From the NCBI GenBank assembly GCA_944391615.1, contig CALXUE010000001.1, positions 62,001 to 126,000 of the forward strand: a stretch of DNA of 64,000 nt, written 5' to 3'. A program made the position numbers and the translations under genes. The DNA is from an uncultured Alphaproteobacteria bacterium (GTDB lineage Bacteria; Pseudomonadota; Alphaproteobacteria; RF32; CAG-239). Within the stretch, counting starts at the first letter, position 1; the number at the start of each line of letters is the position of its first letter. Below, in pieces: positions 16,758-35,406 of this stretch. A model generated the notes under the pieces. The model worked only from the letters and a program-made list of their open reading frames with translations, searched no databases and was not told the origin of the DNA.

Positions 16758-17625
16758 GATTAACCTCCTGTGTTTCATCATCAAGAGTTTCCTCATCATC
16801 AACGGGATAAGAGACAATTTTAACATATTCCACACGGTCCAAATCAGCAAACGGCAAGACCCTTATTTCGCGTTTAGACACCTGAGAAACCACGCCGACC
16901 GGCAATCCGGAAGGAAACACGCCGGCCACACCCGAGGTTACGATTCTATCACCCACTTTAATTTCGGAAAACAGCGGCGTAAACACCAATTTAGGCTGCA
17001 ATTCATTATCGCCGGCCAAGATACCGCGTACGCGTGTTTTTTCAATCATCACCGGAATACGAGAGTTAATATCAGTAATTAGTAAGATTTTGCTATACAT
17101 TTTGCCGACTTTATCCAACCGCCCGACAACACCCTTTTCAGTCAAAACAACCTGTCCTTTTTGCGGGTTAGAAGCTTTGCCGGTATAAGCAATCAAAGAA
17201 TGAGAAAAAGCATCACCCTCTTCAGCAATCACACGCGCAGTAATCAGGTTTTCTTCATCGGGGCGCGTATAGTTCAAAAGCTGAGCCAACAGCCTGTTTT
17301 CAATTTCCAAAGAACGAGCGCGTTCGCTAATCAGACGAAGCTTTCGGTTTTCTGCGCGCAATTTGCGGTTTTCGGCACGAGCCAAACGCAAATCCTTAAA
17401 ATAATCATAAACAAAAGAAACACTTTTAGCCGGCAGATTAAGCAAATCAACCAACGGACTAATAACATCGGTTGCCACAGAAGACGTTTTATCCACCAAC
17501 ACCGTGTCTGTTTTATTAAGGAGCATCATCACAAACGCCACCAAAAAGAGAATGACCAATGCAAACTTTTTCAAGAGCAAACGAATATGGCTCAGCTGCA
17601 TAAATAAAACTCTTCTACGTTTCAT
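16750..17625 (-). CDS. mreC: rod shape-determining protein MreC
   Basis: 291 residues from ATG at 17625; a second ATG at 17601 with AGAAGAG upstream is an alternative. The longest frame would begin inside the terminator T-run and is unlikely. An N-terminal membrane helix (LVILFLVAFVMMLLN) is followed by a coiled coil (YFKDLRLARAENRKLRAENRKLR) and the MreC beta-barrel domain (ARVIAEEGDAFSHSLIAYTG, GVVGRLDKVGKMYSKILLIT, IVTSGVAGVFPSGLPVGVV). It links MreB to PBP2 in the periplasm. A hairpin and T-run separate it from mreB. Confidence 0.94.
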   Translation of the reverse strand: MKRRRVLFMQLSHIRLLLKKFALVILFLVAFVMMLLNKTDTVLVDKTSSVATDVISPLVDLLNLPAKSVSFVYDYFKDLRLARAENRKLRAENRKLRLISERARSLEIENRLLAQLLNYTRPDEENLITARVIAEEGDAFSHSLIAYTGKASNPQKGQVVLTEKGVVGRLDKVGKMYSKILLITDINSRIPVMIEKTRVRGILAGDNELQPKLVFTPLFSEIKVGDRIVTSGVAGVFPSGLPVGVVSQVSKREIRVLPFADLDRVEYVKIVSYPVDDEETLDDETQEVNHE

Positions 17626-17640
17626 GACACGCCCAAACAA

Positions 17641-17696
17641 AAAAAAGAAAAAAAACAAAACTCAAAAACGCCAGCGAGCCACTGACGTCTTTGAGT
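17641..17696 (-). terminator. hairpin and T-run between mreB and mreC
   Basis: On the minus strand ACTCAAAGACG (17696-17686) pairs with CGTTTTTGAGT (17670-17660) with two mismatches, and inner CAG/CTG pairing, followed by long T-runs to 17641. It would stop or attenuate transcription after mreB, so that MreB is made in excess over MreCD-PBP2-RodA. Confidence 0.75.
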
Positions 17697-17707
17697 CTAC
17701 AAAAAGA

Positions 17708-18799
<1,092 letters not shown>

Positions 18800-18829
18800 T
18801 TATAACGATATAAGCGTTTATGCAACACC

Positions 18830-19789
18830 TTAAAACATCTTTTTAACATCAATAATAATATTTTCTAAAATTTCTTTTTGAGAAGCATAGCAACAAGGAA
18901 CAACAAAATTTGCATTCAGCTTATTTTTAAACCACGTTCGTTGCCTTTTGGCATATTGTCTGGTATGGAGTTTTGCTGATTCGATACTTTCAGATAACGA
19001 GACTTCACCACGCACATAGCTTAACAACTCCGGCACCCCCAAGGCGCGCATAGCCGGCAGTTTAGAAGAAAGCTGTAAGCGTTCCAGCTTTTTTGCTTCT
19101 TTGGCAGCCCCTTGAGCCACCATTTTATCAAAACGCAAAAAACAGCGTTTATCAAGCTCCGCTTTATCAGGCAAAATGGATATAACATAAAACACAGCAT
19201 TCGGTAAAAGTTTTTTCATCGGCAAACTGTGCCAATAGCTTAAAGGCTTACCTGTATCATAAAAAACCTCCAAGGCACGTCGCACGCGCGTCGTATCGTT
19301 CGGGCTGAGCCTTTCGGCTGTTTTAGCATCTACCAAAGCCAAAATTTCATGACATTTTTGTACGCCGTCTTTTGCCAGCATTTGCGCCACCTTACGCTTA
19401 ACATCCTCTTTAGTTTCGGGAATGGGCGTCACACCGTTGATAAGATTGTCCAAATACATTCCTGTTCCACCCACCACAACCGGTACTTTGTTATTTTGCC
19501 AAAGCTTTTGAATACAAGGCACAACCTCATTCATCCAGTCCACCACTGAGCCGTTAAAAGAAGCGTCCCACATTTCATAAAGTAAATGCGGCACAATTTT
19601 TTTATCCTCCGCAGAAGGACAAGCTGAAATTATGGGTGTGTTTTTATAAACCTGCATTGAATCGGCATTAACCACCGCCCCATCAAAAGCCAACGCCAAA
19701 TCAATAGCAAGTTGAGACTTTCCTGACGCTGTAGGACCGGCAATAACAATCACCAAATCACGCATTTTGCTGTTATCGGCAAGCTTCAT
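18830..19789 (-). CDS. miaA: tRNA dimethylallyltransferase
   Basis: 319 residues. The P-loop AGPTASGKSQLA near residue 17, NADSMQVYKNTPIISACPS (substrate aspartate and DSxQ segment) and VVVGGTGMYLDNLINGV are hallmarks of MiaA, which adds the isopentenyl group to A37 of tRNAs reading UNN codons. The C-terminal RQYAKRQRTWFKN is the conserved tRNA-binding end. I chose ATG 19789, which overlaps the ddl stop (TGATG); ATG 19765, just before the P-loop, is possible. Confidence 0.94.
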   Translation of the reverse strand: MKLADNSKMRDLVIVIAGPTASGKSQLAIDLALAFDGAVVNADSMQVYKNTPIISACPSAEDKKIVPHLLYEMWDASFNGSVVDWMNEVVPCIQKLWQNNKVPVVVGGTGMYLDNLINGVTPIPETKEDVKRKVAQMLAKDGVQKCHEILALVDAKTAERLSPNDTTRVRRALEVFYDTGKPLSYWHSLPMKKLLPNAVFYVISILPDKAELDKRCFLRFDKMVAQGAAKEAKKLERLQLSSKLPAMRALGVPELLSYVRGEVSLSESIESAKLHTRQYAKRQRTWFKNKLNANFVVPCCYASQKEILENIIIDVKKMF

Positions 19790-29451: not shown

Positions 29452-31992
29452 TCACGATAATTTTTTATCATTTTCAAAAGGATTCTCTTCAGTATCATTG
29501 GCTCTAAAAGCATCATCGCTAAGCCACCAATCATCATCATCTTTGCGTTTTTCTTCATCAACATCATCCGATAAAACGTCAGCCGTTTGATTTTCATCAA
29601 CATTGATTTCATCAAAAGTTTCCTTATCATTCACTTCAGTTTCATCATTTCTTGCGACAAAAGCAAAATGCACTTTATCATCAGGATTTTGCGCAACATC
29701 ACGCGTTTCCACAACGTTATCATCGACATTGTTATTTTCTACAACGCCATTATCGACATTGACATCGTCATCATCAACTTCAACAATATTGTTACTTTGA
29801 ACATCATCGCTTTCTGCAATATCCTGATCTTCAGAAAAATCTTCGACCACCCCCTGCTCTTCACCTTCAGTTACTGCATCTTCAGCAAGCATGTTTTCAT
29901 CAAACTCTGCATGATAAAAATCACCATCTGGCAAAGGCGGCACATCCACATCCTGAGCATTACGTGCTTTCACAAGATCAGCATCCAAAAACAACATAGG
30001 CTTTTTCAAAGAAAGCAAATTAAATCTGGCATCTAAATTAAAACGTTCGGCATCGACCTTAATCGGCAGATTATAAAACCCTCTGATGAGCAACCAATGC
30101 TGAGAATTGGTAATATTTTTATATGTACGCAAAGCCACCAGCTCATCTGCAATTTTTCGATAATAATAAGCATCGGCCACACCTTTTTTCACCTTAGAAA
30201 ACGTACTGGTTTTCACCATGGGAATCTGCACAGACTTAGAACCGAATACCGCCAATTCTCTAAATTGTTGGCTAAGCTCCACATTATTTTTAGCAAACAA
30301 AAGCTTGTGGTCGCAAGAAGCTTGTAAAACTTCCACGGCCGATTTTCCATAAGCCTCGCTAACATCTTTAAGATTATTAGTAAGCAACAAGAAACTGATA
30401 TTTTTTTCAGCCCCGAACTTCAAACCACGTTCAAGCGAGCTAAATGGCGGCAAATTATTCCAGTCATCAATCACAAACAACAAGCGCATTTTCTGAGCTG
30501 ATTTATGTTTTTCCAAATTGCGTTCAATCAACATATCCAGCATCAAACGCGACATATTGGCCGCAAAGGGATTTTGAGCAGACAAATAAACCGTACACGG
30601 GCACCACTCACCGCTATCTTTACGCATAGCCCGCGCATACTTAAGAGAAAAATCACTGGAAGAACAGCGTTCGCGAATAGAGTCCTGCCGAAACATATCC
30701 ATATGAGCAACAATACCATCAAACAATTTTTTTCTGGTTTCAAAAGCCAACCCAAGCAACTCTTGCACCATATCAACAATAGCAGCCCCATACCCAAACA
30801 ACAGTGTTTCTTTGAGCATACTCTGCAAAAACGCCGCCCAAACATCAACTTGAGGATTTTTGATAGAACGCAAATTTTGCAACAAGAGCAAATCATAAAT
30901 CATAGGCAAACAGAGCTCTTTTCCTTTCCAGGGCTCAGGAATACCGTTCCAACTTCCGATAGGCAAATAATTTTCGACCTGCGTTCTGCCGGCAGCCAAG
31001 TCATCAATAGCAGACTGTGCCACATTTTGAGGCATAACGGCATAATAGCTCAGCAAAATATCTTTATCTTCAGCGCTAAATTGGCCTCTGTCAATCAAAT
31101 TAGCCAACAAATAATCATTAGCACATGCTTGTTCAACCTTTGCCACAGAAAAATTCAGCAAAGCCTCACACGCCAAATTAGACAACCTCCGCCAATACAA
31201 ATCCTCAACATCAGGCAACAAATGCTCAGCCAAGCGACGCAAATAAAGTTCGCGTTTTTGGCTTTTTGCAGGCATATCTTTATCCGAAAGAGGATTCCAT
31301 CTGGGCCAAAATTCATTTTTCAAAGGATTGTCAATTTTATCCCAATCAAAACAAAAGACACGCCCCAAACCAAATCTATGCCCTGAGGTAAATTTCATCA
31401 AATCACCGGTAGTATCAATAGCAACCACACTTGAAAGATTAGACATCAAAATAGAAGGCACGGCCACGGTTGAAGTTTTGCCCAATCCATCACCCCCCCA
31501 AACCAAAACGGATGAAGGAGCATCGGGTGAAACAATTTTACCCTCAAAACGTCCCAAAAAAATGCTCTGACCGGCATTGATAGGCATATTCTGCACATCT
31601 TCACGCTTAGCCATACGATGATTGAGACGATACCACAAATTAAACGAACTCTGGCTTGACATATAAGCCTTAAACAAAAACACCAAGAACAGAGCCGGCG
31701 ACAAGAGTGGAATAAACATAGTCCAATGAGGATTATGAGCATTCCACAAAGCCTTCACCCAAAAAGAATATGCACCAAACACATTCAAAGGGTTCTGCTT
31801 AACATTCAACAAAAAACGATAAATTCTGTGTGTATTTCGTGTTGTGACCCCATATTCCACAAACTGATAAATAATCAGTGTAAGCAAATCCGCAATCCAA
31901 AAATAAATAACTGAGCACAACAAAAAGACAAGGGCTTTAACCCACCAAGCCCATTTACGCGCTTTTATTCGTTTTATATATAAATTTTCCAT
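29452..31992 (-). CDS. VirD4/TraG-like type IV coupling ATPase with acidic tail
   Basis: 846 residues from ATG 31992 (AAGG upstream). Two N-terminal membrane regions (about 20-45 and 95-115) lead to a P-loop ATPase domain. Walker A is VWGGDGLGKTSTVAVPSIL (around 165). The next strand reads SVVAIDTTGDLMKFTSGHRFG, matching the family DPKGEL-TagyR segment, then FWPRWNPLS. Walker B is LLFVIDDWNNLPPF (around 505), with DD where most have DE. A variable C-terminal tail of about 160 residues is extremely rich in Asp, Glu, Asn and Val. The family recruits substrates to type IV secretion channels. No other virB or dot/icm gene is here. Just downstream of the pentapeptide gene. Confidence 0.85.
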   Translation of the reverse strand: MENLYIKRIKARKWAWWVKALVFLLCSVIYFWIADLLTLIIYQFVEYGVTTRNTHRIYRFLLNVKQNPLNVFGAYSFWVKALWNAHNPHWTMFIPLLSPALFLVFLFKAYMSSQSSFNLWYRLNHRMAKREDVQNMPINAGQSIFLGRFEGKIVSPDAPSSVLVWGGDGLGKTSTVAVPSILMSNLSSVVAIDTTGDLMKFTSGHRFGLGRVFCFDWDKIDNPLKNEFWPRWNPLSDKDMPAKSQKRELYLRRLAEHLLPDVEDLYWRRLSNLACEALLNFSVAKVEQACANDYLLANLIDRGQFSAEDKDILLSYYAVMPQNVAQSAIDDLAAGRTQVENYLPIGSWNGIPEPWKGKELCLPMIYDLLLLQNLRSIKNPQVDVWAAFLQSMLKETLLFGYGAAIVDMVQELLGLAFETRKKLFDGIVAHMDMFRQDSIRERCSSSDFSLKYARAMRKDSGEWCPCTVYLSAQNPFAANMSRLMLDMLIERNLEKHKSAQKMRLLFVIDDWNNLPPFSSLERGLKFGAEKNISFLLLTNNLKDVSEAYGKSAVEVLQASCDHKLLFAKNNVELSQQFRELAVFGSKSVQIPMVKTSTFSKVKKGVADAYYYRKIADELVALRTYKNITNSQHWLLIRGFYNLPIKVDAERFNLDARFNLLSLKKPMLFLDADLVKARNAQDVDVPPLPDGDFYHAEFDENMLAEDAVTEGEEQGVVEDFSEDQDIAESDDVQSNNIVEVDDDDVNVDNGVVENNNVDDNVVETRDVAQNPDDKVHFAFVARNDETEVNDKETFDEINVDENQTADVLSDDVDEEKRKDDDDWWLSDDAFRANDTEENPFENDKKLS

Positions 31993-32105
31993 ACTCAGCC
32001 TTACAAAAACCAAGTTATGATAGCAAATTTTCCCAAAACTTCAAGAGAGATAATTAAGCAATTTTTAGAAAAGAAATTTAAATTTTTGCCGCCAAAACTA
32101 AGAAA

Positions 32106-33308
32106 CTAGCGTTCAAAGCCGCCTCTACCGCGTACCATATCCGAAGAAATTTCCATAGATTTGTGCTGTTTGCGTTCTTCCTGCTCTTTTTCTTGGAGTT
32201 CACGCTGCCGTTCTTTGCGTGCTTCCAACACCGCCTGTTTATTTTTTTCAATATTTTCCAAAACCTTTTCTTTTCGTTCATCGCTTTTTGCTTTTTGCTC
32301 AGATTTAACTTGCTCCAAAATTTCCTCATCTTTAATTTTAGGTTTAGCGGCATCACGCCTAAAAACCTTGCGTCCGGCATCAAAAATTTTATCAATAGAC
32401 ACACCTTTTGAACGCGACACATCCCACACACCGATTTCTCTGCCGTCATCCACAAACAAGTCCATCCAGTCCATGCCTTTCCAACCTTCTTTTTGATTTT
32501 TTTTGCGAGGAGCCATAAGCTGTTGCATTTCGGCGGGTGTTGGCGGGCGCCCCAAGGCTTGAGCAATTTGCTGCGGTGTAATAATGCATTCACTCAAATT
32601 CAACCCTATAATATTAACACCGGTAAAATCCACCCCGCTAAAATCCACACCACGTAAATCGAGCTGAGACAAGTCAATTTTCTTCAAATCCAAAAGTTTA
32701 AGATTAATTCTGGTCAAATTGAGCTTATGCGGAAAGTTTTTAGCAAGAAACTCCACCAATTCCTGCAACTCCTCCAGACCGATTTCATCGATTCTTAAAT
32801 CCAGCAGAAAAGCTCCGTTCAAATCAGCTTCACTCAATTTAACCTTATCAAAACGGGCCCGATTAAACACCGTATCACGCAAAATAGCCCCTGAAAGATT
32901 AGCCTCGGACAAATCCGCACCCGAGAAATCAGCACCGGTCAAATCTGCACCGGTAAAATCCACACCTTTAAGCGACACATTTCTAAAATCCGCCCCAATT
33001 AATGAGGCACCGGCAAAATTAGCCCCATCCAAATTTTTACCGACAAAAGACTGCTTTTCAAAAACCTTACCGCTAAAATTTCTGTCATCACGCACATCAG
33101 CTAGAGGCAGCGTTTGCTCAACAACAGACAAACCACCTTGATAGGTTGTTTTAATATGGTGTTCATCTTTCAAAGATTTAACATTTTCCGGCAATTTAAT
33201 ATCTTCAAAGCCCTCTAAAAGCCAATCATCATTCAAATCGACTTCATCATCACGCAAAGTAGACACACTGTGCCACTTAATATTTTTATCATCATCATCG
33301 ACAGTCAT
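32106..33308 (-). CDS. pentapeptide-repeat protein with charged coiled-coil tail
   Basis: 400 residues. Residues about 65-150 and 190-225 are A(D/N)LxG-type pentapeptide repeats (for example GADFRNVSLKGVDFTGADLT and SGADLSEANLSGAILRD), which fold as a right-handed quadrilateral beta-helix. A helical segment (ELQELVEFLAKNFPHKLNL) interrupts them. The middle holds WKGMDWMDLFVDDGREIGVW and the C-terminal 110 residues are a Lys/Glu/Arg/Gln-rich coiled coil ending in RGRGGFER. No signal peptide, so it is probably cytoplasmic. It sits between a TolC/SPOR-like lipoprotein and the VirD4-like ATPase, with gaps of 76 and 113 bases; a role with them is inferred. Confidence 0.85.
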   Translation of the reverse strand: MTVDDDDKNIKWHSVSTLRDDEVDLNDDWLLEGFEDIKLPENVKSLKDEHHIKTTYQGGLSVVEQTLPLADVRDDRNFSGKVFEKQSFVGKNLDGANFAGASLIGADFRNVSLKGVDFTGADLTGADFSGADLSEANLSGAILRDTVFNRARFDKVKLSEADLNGAFLLDLRIDEIGLEELQELVEFLAKNFPHKLNLTRINLKLLDLKKIDLSQLDLRGVDFSGVDFTGVNIIGLNLSECIITPQQIAQALGRPPTPAEMQQLMAPRKKNQKEGWKGMDWMDLFVDDGREIGVWDVSRSKGVSIDKIFDAGRKVFRRDAAKPKIKDEEILEQVKSEQKAKSDERKEKVLENIEKNKQAVLEARKERQRELQEKEQEERKQHKSMEISSDMVRGRGGFER

Positions 33309-33384
33309 AAATCAAACACCTGCCAATCAAAAGCTCGTCAACTTTTACTATAATAAGCCAAAATCGCGTATTTTACAAATATTT

Positions 33385-35406
33385 TTATCTTAAAAAACAA
33401 TCTTCATGATTTTTCCGCAAATAATTGCACAAATCACGCAAATTAGCCTTTTCGGAATAAATCAACAACCGATGAAACATCTTGCCGTGAACTTGAGCTT
33501 TTTGTTGCATAGGCTCAAAATTTTTCAACTGCGGATAAGTTGAGCTCAACCTTTTCCAATCATTATCATAGTTTTTAGGATAGATATAAGCACCAAGCTG
33601 TAACACTTTGCGACGATTCGGTTCTTCACCGACATAAGGAGCATATCTATCTTTCGGATGAGACTGAATTTTTTCCATAGAATTTTTCTTGCGCAAAATC
33701 AAATCAGAAACTTTAGGCTTCTCATTTTGAGTAGCCATAGCCTTTGCGGGCACCGGAGATTTTGCTTTAAGTTTAGGCTCCAAAAACTCAAACGAAGCCT
33801 CCTTAACAGGTTCATCATCAAATTCTTGAGCATTTTCAGACATTTTTGCAGATTCGTTAACGCGTGTATTTTCATCGGCCTGCCAACGTTTTTCATCATC
33901 AGAAAGTTTTTCCCCTTCAACCACTTTTTCAAGCCAATTATCACCTGTTGCCCAGCGTTCATGATGATTTTCCACCTGAAGTGCCTTTTCTTTGTTTTTC
34001 TGAGCTTCTTCATAAGCTTGATTAAGCAAAATAACTCTATCTGACGTAAAACCTTTTTTAAACGTATCAGCCAACACGGCAGGCGTATCGGCATAAAAAG
34101 AACAGCCGAAAGGATTATAACCTGCATAAAAATACAAAGAGGCAATAGCACTTGAGCGTTCAGCTTTAACGCGTTCACGCAGAATTTCCAGTTTTAAGAG
34201 CAAAACCTGCTTGTCCAAAAGTGTTTCCTTGTCGGCATAAGACAAATCTCGGCTCTTCAAACGAGAAACCTCTTTTTTAAGATTCGTATATTCTCGATTC
34301 GTCTTGTCCAAATCAAGCGTCGTCACTTTAACCACATGGAACATCAAGTTAATCTGAACAAAGATGGAAGACACCAACTCATCATAAATTTTTTCTTTCA
34401 ACCGAAAAGCCTCATCAGAATTTTGGCTTTTCTGATAAGCCGCAATAGCCCCGATTAAACCGTTAGCTGCCTTATCAGCCTGTTTTTCCAAAGCCTCTAT
34501 ATAGAGCACCTGATTTTGCTCAAATCCGTTAATATCCAAACTTTTATCAGCATCATAATTATAAGCAATATATCTATCAATAGCCACAAAATCATAATCT
34601 CTGATTTTTGCCTCAGGAGATTCGAACTCCGGACGTTTGTGCATAGCCGCTCTTTGATAAACTTCAGGCGACATTTTTTTATCCAATTCATTGAGTTCAA
34701 AGAACTTACGCCCATCAAGCTTAAGCTTGTCATTATCATCCTTAATCAATTGGCGATAAGTCACCACTTCATTAACCAAATTTTCTCTCAGCTCCGGCAG
34801 TTGCACAAGAGCCGCCTCAAGGGAAGACTTATAAGACATTTCTTCATCGCTGAGCTTACCGCCAAGGTTATATTTTGCATTCAAGGCGGCCAATTTAGTT
34901 TTTTCAGTCTGAATAAGATTATTTATTTTGCGAATAATTTTTTCCGAAGCCAAAATGTCACCATGCGTTTTCACCGCAGCCACAGCCAAACTCTGAGCAG
35001 ATTTTTGCATAATCAACAAAGAGGCCTGTTCAGGCGTTTCAGCCAAATAAGCACCGGCATACAAAATAGCATAATCAAGAGCGCGCACACCATTATAAAG
35101 AGCATTTCCGTTATCGGGAGAATTTAATACATTAAGGATAATATCTTTTGGCGAAAGGTTAGGATTGGTCGTATAAATTTTTTGGCGCATATCTTCACTG
35201 AGTTTAAGCGTATTATACTTAACGGCACGCGCCATACCATCATACACATCGACAGCCCTGCTGACTTTAATCGGTTTTTCTTGTTTTAAGGCACAAACAT
35301 TGGTTGAAGCCGCATTTTGGGCGGTGTTATTATCCTGTTTTTCAACCTGAGCACAAGCCCCCAACACCAAAACAGAAACCGATAACAAAGCAACATACCA
35401 TTTCAT
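33385..35406 (-). CDS. lipoprotein with TolC-like helical domain and C-terminal SPOR domain
   Basis: 673 residues from ATG 35406, which starts a lipoprotein signal MKWYVALLSVSVLVLGAC (lipobox LGAC). Residues about 45-420 are long helices arranged like an outer-membrane efflux factor: GMARAVKYNTLKLSEDM, NGVRALDYAILYAGAYLAE, a coiled coil, KRPEF, and the closing ERVKAERSSAIASLYFYAGYNPFG. I see no clear beta-barrel strands. A charged linker leads to residues about 605-673, which look like a SPOR domain: VLQLGAYIYPKNYDNDWKRL and HRLLIYSEKANLRDLCNYL. SPOR domains bind denuded septal glycan. This architecture is one I do not recognise. It heads the pentapeptide/VirD4-like set. Confidence 0.8.
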   Translation of the reverse strand: MKWYVALLSVSVLVLGACAQVEKQDNNTAQNAASTNVCALKQEKPIKVSRAVDVYDGMARAVKYNTLKLSEDMRQKIYTTNPNLSPKDIILNVLNSPDNGNALYNGVRALDYAILYAGAYLAETPEQASLLIMQKSAQSLAVAAVKTHGDILASEKIIRKINNLIQTEKTKLAALNAKYNLGGKLSDEEMSYKSSLEAALVQLPELRENLVNEVVTYRQLIKDDNDKLKLDGRKFFELNELDKKMSPEVYQRAAMHKRPEFESPEAKIRDYDFVAIDRYIAYNYDADKSLDINGFEQNQVLYIEALEKQADKAANGLIGAIAAYQKSQNSDEAFRLKEKIYDELVSSIFVQINLMFHVVKVTTLDLDKTNREYTNLKKEVSRLKSRDLSYADKETLLDKQVLLLKLEILRERVKAERSSAIASLYFYAGYNPFGCSFYADTPAVLADTFKKGFTSDRVILLNQAYEEAQKNKEKALQVENHHERWATGDNWLEKVVEGEKLSDDEKRWQADENTRVNESAKMSENAQEFDDEPVKEASFEFLEPKLKAKSPVPAKAMATQNEKPKVSDLILRKKNSMEKIQSHPKDRYAPYVGEEPNRRKVLQLGAYIYPKNYDNDWKRLSSTYPQLKNFEPMQQKAQVHGKMFHRLLIYSEKANLRDLCNYLRKNHEDCFLR

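Follow-up and report, generated by a model that had tools for sequence, protein, structure and literature searches.

The window, a stretch of 64,000 nucleotides from an uncultured alphaproteobacterium, carries a set of three genes on its reverse strand. In the direction of reading, these are the genes of a lipoprotein, a pentapeptide-repeat protein and a VirD4-like ATPase, named VirD4-A here (Table 1). Gene calls reproduced exactly the coordinates and the common direction given in the initial annotation. The lipobox, the TolC-like helical pairs and the SPOR domain of the lipoprotein were likewise confirmed, as was the cytoplasmic pentapeptide-repeat protein. The proposal built on these genes, a divergent export device, stood only in part, as discussed below.

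Table 1 Positions of the three genes and their features in the window
Feature	Position	Strand	Remark
Three-gene set	29452-35406	-	lipoprotein, then pentapeptide protein, then VirD4-like ATPase
VirD4-A: VirD4/TraG-type coupling-protein paralogue, 846 aa	29452..31992	-	start ATG 31992
C-terminal WWLSDDAF...NPF motif after acidic linker	29476..29529	-	
Walker B LLFVIDD, degenerate (DE expected)	30463..30483	-	glutamate in 0/57 of the A clade
Walker A GGDGLGKT, intact	31474..31497	-	K in 57/57, T or S in 57/57
PENTA: cytoplasmic pentapeptide-repeat protein, 400 aa	32106..33308	-	Pentapeptide E=1e-33
Pentapeptide-repeat core, about residues 76-243	32580..33083	-	Pfam
LIPO: lipoprotein of TolC/OMF origin, 673 aa, SPOR domain at the C-terminus	33385..35406	-	
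SPOR domain, residues 599-672	33391..33612	-	Pfam E 0.0061; RlpA SPOR match
WAxxxNWLE motif, conserved, in linker past helical body	33928..33954	-	W485, W491 invariant
OMF-like helical body, residues 52-454	34045..35253	-	two repeats of helical hairpins
Lipobox Cys18	35353..35355	-	invariant in 19/19 orthologues

Conservation and surroundings of the locus

The gene order was compared in 58 loci from whole-genome collections and GTDB genomes, each with an A-type VirD4. In 51 of them, the lipoprotein, pentapeptide and VirD4 genes are contiguous in this order and on one strand, a conservation in relatives that the initial annotation had proposed to look for. The carriers are gut Alphaproteobacteria of the Azospirillum sp. 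CAG:239 group, within one order, and Azospirillum sp. CAG:239 itself is among them (L142). Seven loci are not contiguous. One lies on a short contig (L136), two have the trio rearranged or interrupted (L134, L135), and one has additional genes inserted within it (L181). The stretches fetched for L150 and L180 hold no lipoprotein gene, which is carried on another contig of the same genomes, and the genome of L177 has no lipoprotein. This last sequence (JAISVX010000001.1) is titled Lactobacillaceae bacterium, but in its genes it belongs with the alphaproteobacterial family and is probably mislabelled.

In most loci, the trio is flanked by a mocA-like/truA pair on one side and by rarA-rluC on the other. 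The position beside rarA is chromosomal, conserved and off mobile elements. Since rarA starts about 15 bases past the VirD4 stop codon, the trio may be read together with it. Genes for VirB4, VirB8, VirB9, VirB10 and VirB11 are absent from the flanks of the trio, in the window and in the related loci. A separate observation concerns two near-identical two-gene cassettes for cysteine-rich secreted proteins, which lie in inverted orientation at L033:4343-6154 and L033:11647-13425. They bracket a stretch from an ispA-like gene to aspS, and a third related pair is found at 17468-19668.

Within the family of the window (32 genomes), the lipoprotein and VirD4-A are both present in 19 genomes and both absent in ten. 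One genome (G030) has the lipoprotein without VirD4-A, and two have VirD4-A without the lipoprotein (G022 and G024, the latter incomplete). These partial losses, of the lipoprotein in G022 and of VirD4-A in G030, indicate that the three genes are not strictly interdependent. In close pairs, dN/dS ranges from 0.02 to 0.17 across all three genes. They are therefore functional genes under purifying selection, and decay of the trio was ruled out on the same grounds.

The VirD4 paralogue and its pentapeptide partner

The description of the third gene product as a membrane-anchored TraG/VirD4 ATPase has to be qualified. Pfam matches to T4SS-DNA_transf (4e-18), TrwB_AAD_bind (2e-8) and TraG-D_C (8e-7), two hydrophobic segments visible in the N-terminal sequence and an intact P-loop liken it to the VirD4/TraG/TrwB coupling proteins. 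In contrast, its Walker B motif is degenerate, reading DD and not DE. The published Walker B consensus of coupling proteins ends in DE (PMC7434980), and the glutamate is present in all 11 paralogue B proteins and all six outgroup proteins compared. At this position, the 57 A proteins carry D (52), N (4) or G (1), and their DPKxEL and GQD motifs are also eroded. Further differences from the known coupling proteins are the pentapeptide partner, the lack of a T4SS operon around the gene and a C-terminal WW[LM]..AF..NPF tail. This tail occurs in 51 of the 57 A proteins, was not seen in paralogue B, and looks like a docking peptide. With a dN/dS of 0.04-0.07 for VirD4-A and the Walker A lysine kept throughout the A clade, the loss of the Walker B glutamate is not a sign of decay. 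Judged from its motifs, VirD4-A would bind ATP and hydrolyse it poorly, an exchange of glutamate for aspartate in Walker B being no proof of lost hydrolysis. Searches of PDB sequences with the VirD4-A ATPase and with the lipoprotein returned nothing useful.

A second VirD4 (copy B) is encoded in the same genome on contig C6. It is 29% identical to VirD4-A and has canonical motifs, and nearly all genomes of the family have a single such copy. In the tree, clade A has 97% support and forms one group (99%) with the pentapeptide-linked VirD4s of the loci L184 and L187; copy B and the outgroup VirD4s stand apart from it. All five genomes tested have one A-type and one B-type copy, and the duplication therefore predates the split of the families. 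Of the basal pentapeptide-linked proteins, that of L184 retains DE and that of L187 has DD. Upstream of the VirD4-B gene, four genes of unknown families (454, 175, 481 and 303 aa), some of them for membrane-bound products, were noticed at L034:1956-6322, and similar genes recur at the same place in relatives (L117, L115).

The pentapeptide protein has a conserved non-repeat C-terminal region beyond its repeats. In many genomes, its gene and that of VirD4-A overlap or nearly touch. Furthermore, the pairing persists in the most distant relatives, L184 and L187, in other gene surroundings and with no lipoprotein gene beside the pair within the fetched stretch. This persistence and the touching genes make the pentapeptide protein the most stable partner of VirD4-A. 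The three genes could also be neighbours without joint function, held together by a general conservation of gene order that extends to mocA-like, truA, rarA and rluC. The conserved flanks and the partial losses in G022 and G030 would fit such an explanation, but it is made very unlikely by the pair in L184 and L187. The same holds for the genome UBA5343, where the lipoprotein, pentapeptide and VirD4 genes are clustered and rarA, rluC and truA were not found beside them.

The lipoprotein and its export-type relatives

The lipoprotein is best described as a TolC-like body with a SPOR tail. Its lipobox cysteine is also found in the homologues of UBA5343 and G053. In the structure model (mean pLDDT 79), residues 52-454 match TolC over 278 residues with a Z score of 15.0 and an rmsd of 6.5, far above the unrelated rows of the comparison (about 6). 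The tail (residues 599-673) matches the SPOR domain of RlpA (Z 8.1, rmsd 2.3), and the RlpA matches include the entry of a complex with denuded glycan. From this fold, the tail is predicted to bind denuded septal glycan. Matches ranked below the OMFs and SPOR domains, with Z of about 6 and less, reflect common helical arrangements and were disregarded. By sequence, the Pfam result for the window protein is SPOR alone, at 17.3 bits and below the cut-off of 21 bits; 12 of the 19 orthologues match SPOR at E<=0.05. Pfam OEP gave no match in the window protein, and the best orthologue reached E 0.01. The proteins of L084 and L086, in contrast, match OEP (PF02321) above the cut-off. Profile comparisons relate the window family to two proteins that match Pfam OEP, one of 804 aa in UBA5343 (hhalign prob 99.9) and one of 628 aa in G053 (prob 98.9). 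According to the profile alignments, an LPSxxAS-type stretch of these homologues has no evident equivalent in the window family.

The lipoprotein thus shares with TolC, OprM and CusC (PF02321) the two-repeat helical fold, with Z of 10-15 to solved structures, and with OprM and CusC the lipobox. In contrast to them, it carries a SPOR tail, lacks a Pfam OEP match and has no pump or adaptor adjoining it. It also differs from RlpA and other SPOR wall-binding proteins, which it resembles in the SPOR fold, by the attachment of this domain to a TolC-like body. The outer-membrane tunnel proposed for it stood as far as the helical fold is concerned, but the barrel strands of such a tunnel were not predicted. 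Apart from single bridge residues, the strands of the window model are confined to SPOR. The UBA5343 model, with mostly the same rows, is equally strandless (pLDDT 65.5), although its sequence matches PF02321, so the window model need not mean that a barrel has been lost in the window family.

An export-type setting is found in UBA5343 (Alphaproteobacteria bacterium, L084). There, a same-strand cluster joins the homologous SPOR lipoprotein (PF02321 1e-24), three HlyD-type proteins (a 223-aa HlyD, a GAF-HlyD and an M50-HlyD), a pentapeptide protein and VirD4-A. The M50 part of the HlyD/GAF-HlyD/M50-HlyD cluster (L084:8506-12682) resembles the model of a daptide intramembrane protease (NF041824, 7e-46), and the literature search found no description of a combination of M50, HlyD, GAF and TolC. 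This locus and the homology of the two lipoproteins support an independent hybrid exporter. In such an exporter, VirD4-A would energise or gate a conduit across the envelope. The TolC-like lipoprotein would form its outer part, and HlyD-type adaptors would come from elsewhere in the genome. Several findings make this unlikely. The Walker B glutamate is absent from all 57 A proteins, that of UBA5343 included, and the window model has no barrel strands. HlyD-type adaptors were found next to the trio only in UBA5343 and never in the window family. In the genome of the window (G000), those HlyD-like genes that were examined are part of RND or ABC pumps of the ordinary kind, and a gene away from the trio encodes an ordinary TolC of 452 aa. 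A related reading takes the trio as a hybrid secretion device, with VirD4 acting through a pentapeptide adaptor together with a conduit of the TolC type that is anchored in the wall. The device would be complete in UBA5343, where it has HlyD-type adaptors, and reduced in the window family; this is rather improbable.

The SPOR tail could also point to a non-secretory scaffold of the envelope that joins the inner membrane, the wall and the outer membrane, for instance at the septum, and in which VirD4-A would be a nucleotide-gated anchor and SPOR would read denuded glycan. The closeness of the SPOR fold to RlpA, the denuded-glycan complex among the matches, the degenerate ATPase motif and the conserved chromosomal place beside rarA, off mobile elements, are consistent with such a function. 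Nevertheless, the export-type neighbours in UBA5343 argue against it, and it is considered unlikely. To our knowledge, moreover, no VirD4-type protein acts in such a role.

The VirB/VirD4 system and the proposed role of the trio

Relatives of the same genus encode a VirB system apart from the trio, with VirB4 (TIGR00929, about 1e-111), two VirB8, VirB9, a VirB10 of 1463 aa and VirB11. In an outgroup (L195), a B-type VirD4 ends a VirB8-VirB9-VirB10-VirB11-VirD4 operon, which resembles the rickettsial rvh system. The canonical VirD4-B is likely the coupling protein of the VirB system. Within the family, VirB10 is present in 29 of the 32 genomes. Because almost every genome has it, the co-occurrence of the trio with the T4SS is uninformative. 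The ten genomes that have VirB10 and neither the lipoprotein nor VirD4-A show, nonetheless, that the trio is accessory at best. Some neighbours of the VirB cluster in relatives are worth recording. Very long proteins are encoded beside VirB9 and VirB11 (L200:13209-16640 and L207:15015-20000), the first of them with beta-flower repeats (Bflower_2 5e-62). A type IVb-like pilus cluster with genes for a PilO-like protein, a secretin and a GspE/PilB ATPase adjoins the VirB cluster (L220:1009-9604 and L216:11737-20000).

In the genome of the window itself, searches for VirB4 and VirB11 were empty or stayed below the cut-off, and ispG, which adjoins the VirB genes in relatives, was likewise not found. 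A single VirB8-like match lies outside the window (G000:C4, around 80000), in a frame of 24263 aa without stop, which is what a run of N would give. A DNA search for VirB genes, made without a positive control, showed none. The missing ispG and the stopless frame suggest that this genome is partly unreadable, and an absence of VirB cannot be concluded from it. DotH/IcmK had no match in the same genome, part of which seems unreadable.

These results bear on the export device proposed in the initial annotation. The exporter-like locus of UBA5343 agrees with the general idea, but an independent device in this organism is unsupported, given a Walker B glutamate missing throughout the A clade, no adjacent adaptor and no barrel strands in the model. 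Moreover, the initial annotation had held that a complete T4SS locus elsewhere, served by a coupling protein of its own and not co-expressed with the trio, would speak against such a device. As to the locus and its coupling protein, this is largely the situation in the same-genus relatives, canonical VirD4-B included. A repurposed add-on to a separate T4SS is more likely than a complete new export machine. The preferred reading, held tentatively and at slightly less than an even chance, is an accessory to the resident VirB system, made of a hydrolysis-impaired, nucleotide-binding VirD4 paralogue with its pentapeptide partner and of a lipoprotein dock. The chromosomal VirB/VirD4 system, known from the same order and from other Alphaproteobacteria, would be the source of the duplicated VirD4, and differs from the trio in its separate locus and its own canonical VirD4-B.

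According to this accessory model, copy A arose when the chromosomal VirD4 was duplicated early on. It then became paired with the pentapeptide-repeat protein, and its Walker B glutamate was lost later, whereas its P-loop was retained. VirD4-A may serve as a membrane platform which presents the pentapeptide adaptor and its cargo to the machine of VirB and VirD4-B, either as a receptor or as a regulatory subunit, and it may perhaps mix with the canonical VirD4. The lipoprotein would be lipid-anchored in the outer membrane and bound to the wall through SPOR, forming a periplasmic dock at new or septal wall. The trio would thereby span the cytoplasm, the inner membrane, the wall and the outer membrane, in agreement with the earlier proposal. 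We infer the contacts among the three products and with the VirB system, as well as their nucleotide state, location and role.

The cluster of UBA5343 is among the known arrangements closest to the trio. Its single locus holds VirD4-A, a pentapeptide protein and a homologous SPOR lipoprotein, but also three adaptor-like proteins, where the trio of the window family has none beside it. No description of the combination of VirD4-A, a pentapeptide protein and a TolC-like SPOR lipoprotein was found in the literature searched. The host group consists of widespread gut bacteria, mostly known from metagenomes. In VirD4-A, which has lost the Walker B glutamate yet is strongly selected, nucleotide binding may be separated from hydrolysis within this ATPase family. 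Furthermore, the trio would show a route by which parts of T4SS and TolC systems are recombined into new envelope structures.
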